From NCBI GenBank assembly GCA_016928495.1, contig JAFGKQ010000135.1, positions 1-7,469 on the forward strand: a DNA stretch of 7,469 nucleotides. The letters are read 5' to 3'. Position numbers and translations under genes: made by a program. The notes below the pieces were generated by a model. That model worked only from the letters and a program-made list of their open reading frames with translations. It did not search any database and had not been told where the DNA came from. Source of the stretch: Candidatus Fermentibacterales bacterium (lineage in GTDB: Bacteria > Fermentibacterota > Fermentibacteria > Fermentibacterales > JAFGKQ01). Positions 120-3,528 of this stretch are shown piece by piece (the first letter of the stretch is position 1; each line of letters opens with the position of its first letter).

Positions 120-1073
120 ATGATGATGCTCCGGGCCTCGGACGAAGAGGCGGGGCATCTCTACTCCGCCGCGAGAAGAGTCAGGGACGACGTGTTCGGC
201 CCGAAGGCCTTCATCAGGGCGGTGGTGGAGTTCTCCAACCAGTGCCGGTGCAACTGCCTCTACTGCGGCATGAGGAAGGACAACGAGCTCGCCGTCAGGT
301 TCATGCTGGAACAGGACGAGATCGTCTCACTCGCGCGAAGGGCTCAAGACTGGGGCATAAGGACCTTCTTCCTGCAGGCGGCGGAGAACGAGACCTACAA
401 CGCGGACTGGCTGGCCAGCGTGATCTCGGAGATACACGGCCTTGGCATGGCGGTGCTGCTCTGCGTCGGCATTCATCGCGAGGAGGACCTCGATCTCTGG
501 TACGAGGCCGGGGCCAGGAAGTTCATCCTCAAGCACGAGATATCGGATCCGGAGCTCTTCGGGAGGATGAAGCCGGGCCTCGAGCTGGCCGACAGGGTCG
601 AGTGGCTCCGGGTTCTGAAGAGGCACAGGTACCACACAGGCTCGGGGCCGCTGCTGGGGCTTCCGGGGCAGACGATCGACACACTCGTGGGAGACCTGGT
701 GCTCATGAAGGAGCTGGCCGTGGACATGTCCAGCATCGCGTTGTTCCTTCCCGCCAAGGGCACGCCGCTCGAGGACTGGCCGGTGGGAGACGTCGAGCTG
801 GGACTGCGCTTCATCGCAGCGATGAGGCTCTACCTTCGCGACACCCTGATCCCTGCGACCAGCACCTTCGAGAGGCTGACCACCGACGGACAACTGCGCT
901 GTTTCCAGGCCGGCGCGAACGTGATCACGGTGAACATGACCCCCCAGCGCCTCCGCGACGACTACGAGCTCTACTCAGACCGCTACTACGTCCGTCTCGA
1001 GCACGCCCGCAACACCATCCGCCGCGCCTCCCTCGAAGAGTGCACCGAAGGGGACGTAGTTAAAGAAACTTAA
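120..1073 (+). CDS. hydE: HydE-family radical SAM protein ([FeFe]-hydrogenase maturase HydE or close paralogue)
   Basis: Radical SAM enzyme that would reductively cleave S-adenosylmethionine. HydE acts with HydF and HydG in building the diiron subcluster of [FeFe] hydrogenase. The CX3CX2C motif is CRCNCLYC (residues 42-49), followed by GMRKDN as in HydE. Further HydE-like blocks are KHE at 138-140, HTGSGPLLGLPGQT at 172-185, a TPL block near 205, IPATSTF near 244 and GANVI near 255. The C-terminal cysteines that bind a second, dispensable cluster in some HydE proteins are absent. The first ATG is at 120, within a run of three, but the frame stays open upstream and codons 63-119 (ITKDWIDARLASGFEPDHL) resemble the missing HydE N-terminus. 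No ATG, GTG or TTG lies in that stretch, so the true start is uncertain. At the 3' end the last seven residues (GDVVKET) and the stop lie inside the inverted repeat of the adjacent element, so the native tail may have been replaced. No hydF or hydG is visible, and a HydE-like paralogue is possible. Confidence 0.75.
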   Translation: MMMLRASDEEAGHLYSAARRVRDDVFGPKAFIRAVVEFSNQCRCNCLYCGMRKDNELAVRFMLEQDEIVSLARRAQDWGIRTFFLQAAENETYNADWLASVISEIHGLGMAVLLCVGIHREEDLDLWYEAGARKFILKHEISDPELFGRMKPGLELADRVEWLRVLKRHRYHTGSGPLLGLPGQTIDTLVGDLVLMKELAVDMSSIALFLPAKGTPLEDWPVGDVELGLRFIAAMRLYLRDTLIPATSTFERLTTDGQLRCFQAGANVITVNMTPQRLRDDYELYSDRYYVRLEHARNTIRRASLEECTEGDVVKET

Positions 1074-1081
1074 GAAACTTG
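1050..1081 (+). repeat. Left 32-bp inverted repeat of the RAYT element
   Basis: Exact reverse complement of 2279-2310. Reading inward it has a GC-rich cap (GGGGAC), a GTAG tetranucleotide at 1056-1059, and an AT-rich stretch ending in two tandem copies of AAGAAACTT (1063-1071 and 1072-1080). Only 12 of 32 bases are G or C, against a GC-rich background. Bases 1060-1073 can fold into a small hairpin (stem TTAAG/CTTAA with one bulged A, loop AAA). Stops occur in all three frames entering from the outside, and one of them ends the HydE-like gene. Confidence 0.9.
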
Positions 1082-1131
1082 TCAGATTAACGGCCCACGT
1101 GCCAAGATAGTAGACATGGTGTATCCGTTAT

Positions 1132-1154
1132 GGGGGGTGGAATCCCATCCTCCC
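1132..1154 (+). other. Imperfect hairpin in the transposase gene leader
   Basis: GGGGGGTGG (1132-1140) pairs with CCATCCTCCC (1145-1154) around an AATC loop. This gives nine pairs, one of them a G-T wobble, with a single bulged T at 1148. It lies 17 nt before the preferred transposase start at 1172 and covers the alternative ATG at 1130. It could limit translation of the transposase or be a recognition hairpin for it, since RAYT enzymes bind imperfect palindromes. The pairing is read directly from the sequence; the function is inferred. Confidence 0.5.
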
Positions 1155-1171
1155 GTCAGTACACTAGGACC

Positions 1172-2209
1172 ATGCCTAGAGATGCCAGACTGGACTGCGA
1201 GGGCGCCCTCCATCACGTGATGGCCAGAGGTATCGGCGTCGAGAGAGTATTCATCGACGCTCGCGATCGCGAGACTTTTCTCGAGCGGCTGGAGCACATG
1301 GTTGGGAGCACCTCTTCGTGCGTATACGCATGGGCGCTGATGGACAACCACGTCCATCTACTCTTCAGAACAGGATCTGTCCCCATCGGCAGGAGCCTTG
1401 CGTCGGTTCTGGGTGGGCACGCTACGTGGTTCAACAGGAGGCACGAGAGACGAGGTCACCTCTTCCAGAACAGGTTCAAGTCCATCCTCGTGGACGAGGA
1501 GACCTACCTTCTCAACCTGGTGCGCTACATACATCTCAATCCTGTAAGGGCAGGAATGGTTACGCTTGAGCAGCTCTGCCGCTATCCCTGGACTGGCCAC
1601 TCAGGCCTGATGGGGAGTTTCGCAAGTACCTGGCAGGACTCCGGCTCAGTTCTTGCGAGGTTCGGCTCGGCGGTCGGCGCGGCCAGGAAGCGTCTTCTCG
1701 ACTTCATGTCGAGCACTGATGCCCAAGCCGACGTGGATCTGGTCGAGGGCGGAGGATTGGTCTGGAGGAATGGCGAGTGGGTCCAACCGAAGAAGCTGCC
1801 CGGTAAACGGAGTGACTGGCCGACCGGGCAGCGCGTGCTGGGTGCAGACTGCTTCGCATCCAGGATTCGGGATGAGGTGAAGCTCTGCGGAAAGCTCGAG
1901 CCTGTAAGGCAGTTGATCAAGCCTGAGCGCACGGAGACCCTCGAACAGCTTGCTGATCGGATCATGCGGAAGCAGCGAATCGACTTTTCATCGCTCCGTG
2001 CAGGGGCCAGAACCAGGAAGCACTCTATCGCGAGGTGTGCGATCTGTCACGAGGCCGTGAGTCGGCTAGGACTCACTCTGGCCGAGATCGCGGAGTTCCT
2101 GGCCATCTCGGTGGCTGCGGCATCTCAGGCGGTGAGAAGGTGGCCCTTGCTGCTGGAGTCGAACCCTTGGTTGCAGGAGATCGTGGATGCGGAGCAGGCA
2201 AGAGGCTGA
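1172..2209 (+). CDS. RAYT / Y1-type HUH transposase with C-terminal helix-turn-helix
   Basis: Transposase of the IS200-like Y1 superfamily (REP-associated tyrosine transposase group), which nicks single-stranded DNA and forms a 5'-phosphotyrosine link. Numbered from the start at 1172, it opens with the typical MPRDARLDCEGALHHVMARG. The HUH metal site is DNHVHLL (H60, H62). RRGHLFQNRFKS is at about 93-104 and the characteristic RYIHLNPVRAGM at 118-129, with Y119 the likely nucleophile (Y112 is the alternative). The C-terminal region, about 270-340, contains a DnaA-C-like helix-turn-helix (LGLTLAEIAEFLAISVAAASQAVRR is spread over 299-323). At 345 residues it fits the longer RAYT class. An in-frame ATG at 1130 would add 14 residues, but family alignment favours MPRDARL; AGGA at 1166-1169 is a close-set ribosome site. 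The gene is intact with no frameshift and lies alone between the inverted repeats. Confidence 0.9.
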   Translation: MPRDARLDCEGALHHVMARGIGVERVFIDARDRETFLERLEHMVGSTSSCVYAWALMDNHVHLLFRTGSVPIGRSLASVLGGHATWFNRRHERRGHLFQNRFKSILVDEETYLLNLVRYIHLNPVRAGMVTLEQLCRYPWTGHSGLMGSFASTWQDSGSVLARFGSAVGAARKRLLDFMSSTDAQADVDLVEGGGLVWRNGEWVQPKKLPGKRSDWPTGQRVLGADCFASRIRDEVKLCGKLEPVRQLIKPERTETLEQLADRIMRKQRIDFSSLRAGARTRKHSIARCAICHEAVSRLGLTLAEIAEFLAISVAAASQAVRRWPLLLESNPWLQEIVDAEQARG

Positions 2210-2242
2210 TCGTTGGAGACGCATTCCGCGTGAGTTCAGTTA

Positions 2243-2279
2243 GGGCGTTCTCATTTGCGTGTTCCGCCAATAAACGCCC
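2243..2279 (+). repeat. Subterminal inverted repeat next to the right end of the element
   Basis: GGGCGTT at 2243-2249 is the exact reverse complement of AACGCCC at 2273-2279, separated by 23 nt. It lies just downstream of the transposase stop and abuts the right 32-bp repeat, sharing one base with it. A smaller GCG/CGC hairpin is possible inside the loop. It might act as a weak terminator for the transposase transcript, although no clean T-tract follows, or as part of the transposase recognition site. The left end has no equivalent copy. Confidence 0.4.
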
Positions 2280-2310
2280 AAGTTTCTTAAGTTTCTTTAA
2301 CTACGTCCCC
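2279..2310 (-). repeat. Right 32-bp inverted repeat of the RAYT element
   Basis: Exact inverted copy of 1050-1081. On the minus strand, reading inward from 2310, it has the GC-rich cap, GTAG (2304 to 2301) and the two AAGAAACTT repeats. It overlaps the 3' end of the minus-strand shikimate kinase gene. The codons for the final Gly-Arg-Ser and the TAA stop (2297-2299) all lie inside the repeat. Homology to the left copy stops sharply at both edges: 2311 does not pair with 1049, and 2278 does not pair with 1082. Confidence 0.9.
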
Positions 2311-2997: not shown

Positions 2998-3528
2998 ATG
3001 ACGAAGGATGAGCTTTCGAAACAGGTGTCCGAGAAGACCGGACTGACCCGCAAGGAGGTCACCGCCGTTCTGAACTCGGCTCTCGAGGCGATAACGGACG
3101 AGCTGGGCAGGGGAGGCAGTGTCTACCTGAGGGGCTTCGGCTGTTTCGAGACGAAGCTGGGAAGGCCGAGACGGGCCAGGAACCCTCAGGGCGAGGGCGT
3201 GATGGTGATCCCTCAGAGAGTCAGGCCCGTCTTCCGGGCCTACGATGATCTGAAGGATGCGGTCCACGAGAGCCTGGCGCCGAGAACGCCCGTGGATTTC
3301 CTGTTCCTGGACGGAAGGGCGGCGACCAGGGTGGCGGTCGTGGGCTCCTTCAACTCCTGGGATGTGTCGGCCAACCCCATGGAGAGGCTCCCCGACGGTA
3401 GCTGGGTCGCCGAGGTCATGATACCTTCGGGACAGGTGATCGCTTACATGTTCGATGTGGACGGAATCAGAGTCTCAGACCCCTCGGCCAAGAAGAACGA
3501 GAAGGGGCACTCGCTCAGACGAGTATGA
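2998..3528 (+). CDS. HU/IHF-family DNA-binding protein fused to a CBM48/AMPK-beta glycogen-binding-like domain
   Basis: Residues 1-91 form a complete HU/IHF-type DNA-bending protein. A helical N-terminus (MTKDELSKQVSEKTGLTRKE) is followed by the GFGCF turn (46-50), the beta-arm with RNPQGE (61-66) and its proline IP (71-72), and a C-terminal YDDLKDAVHE helix. Residues about 97-176 match the glycogen-binding/early-set fold of AMPK beta and isoamylase N-termini: VAVVGSFNSWD (112-122, W121), DGSWVAEV (133-140), a YMFDVDG strand and a VSDPSAKKNEKG end. In AMPK beta the sugar is held partly by a lysine and a second tryptophan in the HQYKF...DGQW segment. Here the aligned positions read Met (YMF) and Arg (DGIR), so sugar binding is doubtful. 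HU proteins are normally about 90 residues, and this fusion is unusual. A GGAGG site lies 5 nt before the ATG. The stop overlaps the ftsK start (ATGA), implying coupled translation. I infer a nucleoid protein with an added protein- or carbohydrate-binding module. Confidence 0.88.
   Translation: MTKDELSKQVSEKTGLTRKEVTAVLNSALEAITDELGRGGSVYLRGFGCFETKLGRPRRARNPQGEGVMVIPQRVRPVFRAYDDLKDAVHESLAPRTPVDFLFLDGRAATRVAVVGSFNSWDVSANPMERLPDGSWVAEVMIPSGQVIAYMFDVDGIRVSDPSAKKNEKGHSLRRV

Follow-up and report, generated by a model that had tools for sequence, protein, structure and literature searches.

The window, i.e. the whole stretch of 7,469 nucleotides analysed here, originates from a draft genome of a Candidatus Fermentibacteria order (2.3 Mb in 337 contigs, 81% complete). 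Between two housekeeping genes, hydE-like and aroK-like, it contains a 1,261-bp unit (positions 1050–2310), composed of one Y1/HUH transposase gene enclosed by 32-bp inverted copies (1050–1081 and 2279–2310). The features of this region are as follows:

3–1073, + strand: hydE-like gene; its 5' end lies outside the window, and its coding sequence ends within the left terminal inverted repeat (TIR), which supplies the last 7 residues and the stop codon
1050–1081, + strand: left TIR, 32 bp; the family consensus continues to 1089
1172–2209, + strand: TIRYT/RAYT transposase gene, 345 aa; likely start MPRDARL, by alignment with relatives (the ORF is open from 1130)
1349–1357, + strand: HUH motif His-Val-His (H60, H62), invariant in 22 homologues
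1526–1528, + strand: catalytic tyrosine Y119 in the motif YIHLNP, invariant in 22 homologues; role assigned by homology to 4er8 and IS608
1919–2206, + strand: C-terminal domain with a DnaA domain IV-like fold (duplex DNA-binding), from the predicted structure and a profile
2279–2310, − strand: right TIR, 32 bp; the family consensus continues to 2271
2297–2830, − strand: aroK-like shikimate kinase gene; its last 4 residues and stop codon lie in the right TIR or span its edge

A further gene of the window (2998–3528) encodes a 176-aa fusion protein, in which an HU-type DNA-binding domain is joined to a carbohydrate-binding module of the CBM48-like type; it is conserved over its whole length beside aroK across the order.

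Direct search of the window for inverted pairs revealed a 45-nt pair (1050–1094 and 2266–2310), whose outer 32 nt match at 32 of 32 positions, while the runner-up in length is 74% complementary. The edges of the 32-nt repeat are sharp (first base outside, A versus C; first base inside, T versus G). The search thus confirmed the original prediction of a 1,261-bp unit bounded by perfect inverted copies. Alignment of 23 arms showed that the conserved part comprises 40 nt (GGGGACGTAGTTAAAGAAACTTAAGAAACTTG-KC-NN-WTTA). The tetranucleotide GTAG occupies positions 7–10 of the repeat, and the ends contain stops in all three frames. In folding tests a single arm did not form a hairpin (z from 0.45 to −0.55), whereas an inverted pair of arms folded into one long hairpin (z from −11 to −14). 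No direct repeat flanks the unit (GCACCGAA versus GGTAGCGG), and searches of Rfam and PADLOC gave no match. The full unit is present in one copy in the 81%-complete draft, so that one derived insertion was seen (see below), but not repeated mobility of the whole unit. The perfect identity of the two arms could reflect recency alone, as the relatives sampled include no genome of the same family.

The transposase matches Y1_Tnp (PF01797; E 8e-8) above the Pfam cut-off. Its best NCBIfam match is REP_Tyr_transpos (NF047646), with 53.6 bits against a cut-off of 80. In the AlphaFold model (mean pLDDT 86) the N-terminal part resembles 4er8, a RAYT with a REP hairpin (Z 14.0 over 156 residues), and the C-terminal part resembles DnaA domain IV (3pvp; Z 13.4 over 91 residues). 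A profile built from 22 homologues likewise matched DnaA (E 7e-6), and PF08299 was detected in one homologue under the cut-off (E 1e-4). According to the model, the protein combines an HUH domain of the RAYT type with a domain resembling DnaA domain IV; the presence of a single RAYT-type gene inside the unit, as had been proposed, is borne out by the PF01797 match and the 4er8-like fold.

Comparison of the hydE–aroK junctions, suggested together with the original prediction, identified relatives that lack the element at this place. In 12 genomes of the order the two genes are convergent, their 3' ends overlap by 4–53 bp and there is no insert between them, while in 4 further genomes they are adjacent and codirectional, again with no RAYT between. 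Judging from the uninterrupted pairs of the 12 relatives, the unit is a derived insertion into an overlapping convergent hydE–aroK gene pair. The ends of the unit provide the stop codons of both genes: the C-terminus of the window HydE reads ...EECTE followed by GDVVKET-stop (in relatives, e.g. ...ETTEGELLS-stop), and that of AroK reads ...IVRRY followed by RGRS-stop. When the flanks were joined without the unit, hydE had no in-frame stop for more than 25 codons, and therefore some bases of the junction must have been lost or changed.

The 32-mer was found at 20 places of the window genome within 3 mismatches, including the two in the window. At the same threshold the reversed 32-mer, used as a control, had no place in this genome, nor had the 32-mer itself in 41 other genomes of the same order; chance is therefore excluded for the repeat. 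The dispersed copies form inverted pairs without a gene (148, 148, 148, 149, 162 and 206 bp), and single copies are also present. This agrees with the expectation that paired or solo copies lacking the gene would occur elsewhere: there are approximately 20 copies, mostly in inverted pairs. A fixed local structure, with the 32-mer occurring nowhere else and all relatives showing the same arrangement, is contradicted by this dispersal and by the relatives without the element at hydE–aroK. The spacers of the pairs are of near-constant length but barely align. Common ancestry of the spacers of the ~148-bp pairs was considered and rejected, with scores near those of shuffled sequences (mean z 0.7 and −0.5, depending on orientation), i.e. 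at most a faint relationship.

In one case (L014:1649-3018, G000:C49) the ends of a pair are 1,370 bp apart, with an unrelated gene between them. The enclosed gene (270 aa ORF) is membrane-protein-like and has no Pfam match, and both arms carry a private C20G, as if they formed one unit with a passenger gene. Another place (L019:2037 and 3103, G000:C255) has two copies that point in the same direction; the 12 bp adjoining them on the outside are identical, and the inner half of the second copy has diverged.

In a GTDB scan the window protein alone gave no match, and homologues were obtained with the family alignment as a query. Most RAYT homologues of the order are situated between inverted ends of 24–37 bp, of other sequence. 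They form locus groups with conserved flanks (flank identities 65–94%), and in the transposase tree the main ones are recovered as clades (SH-aLRT 99 for g1, with 14 rows, 86 for g2 and 97 for g4). The g1 locus lies between priA and a 260-aa gene located beside a DisA-like gene; the same junction is without a RAYT in five other genomes, and two genomes have other genes there. Across most of one genus, the RAYT unit lies immediately downstream of priA (encoding the replication restart helicase) and is convergent with it (L063:4304-7978). Such ends, with a score of at least 15, also enclose 42 of 50 homologues from outside the order (Desulfobacterota, Chlorobi, Nitrospirae, Methylomirabilota, Elusimicrobia, Planctomycetota and other groups), against 0 of 150 in shuffled controls; they mostly begin with RGGGACG or GGGGTCAG. 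In homologous ends GTAG is replaced by GTAC, GTTG, GCCC or GCTG. Three solitary ends in one relative (L131:1817, 4249 and 7640; G023:C10) are 2.4–3.4 kb apart and have the 14-nt sequence agtaggaaacc(c/t)ag in common on their outer side; they may belong to a larger repeated cassette.

The original prediction had also raised the possibility that the two sites are held alike, and in the relatives both ends indeed change in parallel. In g1 the arms of one element differ at a mean of 2.0 of 26 positions, and the same arm differs at 6.0–6.9 positions between deep lineages; in g2 the respective values are 1.2 of 26 and, between species, 7.0–7.6. When right arms were permuted among elements, the observed total was reached in 4 of 720 (g1) and 1 of 120 (g2) permutations. 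Differences between species are mostly present in both arms. The dispersed copies drift along with the ends at the fixed loci: C14T occurs in 34 of 41 unlinked copies of two genomes (G009 and G027), versus 4 of 106 in 11 other genomes. Four g1 genomes have three fixed arm differences in common, and homogenisation is therefore neither constant nor complete. Moreover, the G009 gene at the g2 locus groups with those of G007 and G023, against its flanks (L068 versus L081/L086), which indicates that element exchange at the occupied g2 site occurs. Shared recognition specificity and gene conversion are each compatible with the parallel change of the ends.

End pairs come and go between sister species. 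One genome (G009) contains 63-bp end pairs with differing 11-nt loops. At each of four sites with pairs of this type, the pair is absent in at least one sister species, and at two of the four some sister species have instead a pair made of the ends of a different family. Intergenic sites occupied by end-pairs of different families, depending on the sister species, are those of L143/L285/L283 and of L144/L275, which suggests that places following gene 3' ends are insertion hot spots. Two changes of orientation were detected: (i) the segment between two inverted ends is flipped in G016 relative to G039 (L149:1015-1246 versus L150:1032-1270), with collinear flanks, and (ii) the g1 RAYT of G003 is inverted relative to its neighbour genes.

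The position of the insertions was also analysed. Among 82 element edges (a count that takes orthologous loci repeatedly), 54 fall within −15 to +24 nt of the end of an ORF of at least 100 codons, versus 4.9% of random positions. By the same measure, in the window genome alone, 12 of the 14 edges of seven separate units are near ORF 3' ends. When an exact target or a target duplication was sought, the closest empty sites proved to be diverged within ~5–30 bp of the insertion.

The names TIRYT, for RAYT genes bounded by long terminal inverted repeats, and TIRtron, for the corresponding units, date from 2013 (PMC3733652; Di Nocera, De Gregorio and Rocco). Most probably, the unit at 1050–2310 is such a TIRtron, i.e. 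a self-contained insertion unit in which a TIRYT-type HUH/Y1 gene is placed between inverted copies of the sequence that its protein would recognise. Regarding the mechanism, we infer the following course of events. When the locus becomes single-stranded, the two ends could pair into a 32–40-bp stem; the DnaA-IV-like domain would bind the end as a duplex, and the HUH/Tyr119 domain would nick one of the strands at its outer foot, close to GGGGAC, and rejoin it. The transposase may also act in trans on short pairs. A shared recognition specificity, perhaps together with gene conversion between the arms, would make both ends and the dispersed copies evolve together. The gene itself would mostly remain where it is, the pairs being the putative mobile, REPIN-like part.

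It is conceivable, though we put this forward tentatively, that TIRYTs are working HUH recombinases acting on paired ends and not frozen relics. They would insert whole single-gene units, spread short hairpin pairs, invert the DNA lying between ends and force their changing specificity onto all ends of a genome, with the result that the two arms of a fixed locus and the dispersed copies change in concert. If so, this would be an HUH system whose substrate is a single long hairpin of two arms and not a pair of subterminal hairpins.

A different explanation is a domesticated, immobile locus. Its arms would serve as operators or terminators, and their likeness would be due to selection for a host function and not to the specificity of the transposase. 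The presence of the gene at the same junctions in relatives over flank identities of 65–94%, with the main locus groups being clades, is in line with this, as are the arms abutting the stop codons of convergent genes. On the other hand, the unit at hydE–aroK is a derived insertion, dimers come and go between sister species, and the dispersed copies drift as the arms do, all of which makes a purely domesticated locus rather doubtful. Host function and mobility are not mutually exclusive.

Homologous recombination (gene conversion and inversion) could also have kept the arms identical with no role of the transposase. The inversion of the G016/G039 segment and that of the G003 RAYT are indeed what would be expected from recombination across inverted repeats. 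However, arms of 25–40 bp are short for RecA-dependent gene conversion, and the unlinked, dispersed ends drift in the same way; we therefore regard recombination alone as an unlikely explanation.

The possibility of an ordinary REPtron, i.e. a RAYT gene with two REP palindromes of the GTAG type, in which GTAG would be the REP tag, is more remote still. It derives from the presence of GTAG in the repeat, from the HUH domain being nearest to the REP-bound RAYT structure 4er8, and from the arrangement of repeats as inverted pairs with divergent spacers, as in REPINs (PMC8049555). This reading was rejected: taken singly, an arm forms no hairpin (z 0.45), and GTAG is not kept in homologous ends; in addition, the protein scores below the REP_Tyr_transpos cut-off, and its DnaA-IV-like extension is typical of a transposase subclass, 2.1, that was reported without REPs (PMC6006769). 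Finally, a DDE insertion sequence of the classical kind, which has terminal inverted repeats and duplicates its target, would fit the inverted repeats and the size of the unit, but the sole protein is of the HUH/Y1 type and no direct repeat is present at the flanks, so that this option can practically be dismissed.

The analysis adds several points to previous knowledge. What appears to be new is that (i) in relatives the gene remains at fixed loci, with both ends changing in parallel and the dispersed copies drifting likewise, (ii) segments between ends are inverted in one species versus another, (iii) sister species differ in the presence of short end-to-end dimers, and (iv) insertions are located at gene 3' ends. 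The 2013 work, in the sections considered here, lists genes and repeats, without empty sites, comparison of orthologous ends or inversions (PMC3733652). In the open-licence PMC papers searched we found no TIRYT biochemistry, and only two papers mention the class, which is almost unstudied. In the same literature RAYT loci are described as not appearing to transpose as a unit; the present locus provides one clear case of a RAYT unit versus an orthologous empty site. The parallel change of the ends, the drift of the dispersed copies and the inversions lead to predictions on DNA recognition by an HUH enzyme acting without end hairpins, for which the 63-nt and 148-nt pairs are candidate test substrates.

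Among known systems, IS200/IS605 elements (IS608, ISDra2) share the HUH/Y1 catalytic fold with the window protein (Z 7–9). They differ in having no long TIRs, subterminal hairpins and a TnpA of ~150 aa alone, versus a 345-aa protein with an extra domain; the perfect 32-bp TIRs and the two-domain protein rule out identity with this group. The RAYT/REPIN systems of Pseudomonas and E. coli are similar in the single-copy HUH transposase, the vertical inheritance of its gene and the dispersed non-autonomous inverted pairs with divergent spacers. In contrast to the end described here, which forms a hairpin only as a pair, REPs are self-complementary, with GTRG.

Closer similarity was found to TnpA_Y1 subclass 2.1 (Quentin et al. 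2018, PMC6006769), which comprises long proteins with a C-terminal helix-turn-helix related to Bac_DnaA_C, and to which the window protein, with its predicted DnaA-IV-like C-terminal domain, was assigned by domain features. This subclass, equated in that paper with RAYT group 1 of Bertels et al. 2017, includes 20 of 26 TIRYTs, with no REPs found nearby, and its link to TIRs was left by the authors for confirmation (PMC6006769).

The best correspondence is with TIRYT/TIRtron elements as outlined in PMC3733652: an HUH/Y1 RAYT-like gene is contained within long inverted repeats unrelated to GTAG REPs, and in some, but not all, of the described cases the ends are dispersed as singles and dimers. 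The outer motif GGGGWSAS agrees with GGGGACGT of the present element at 6 of 8 positions, the last two being different; in that account the motif is common to many, but not all, TIRs, the others being unrelated, and it is thus typical and not defining. The proposal that the element represents a distinct class of RAYT element was therefore correct in so far as its long inverted repeats set it apart from IS200 elements and REP-flanked RAYTs, but this class had already been described as TIRYT/TIRtron (PMC3733652). The features tested fit the assignment of the unit as a TIRYT/TIRtron-type member of a class named in 2013, and not as a new class.
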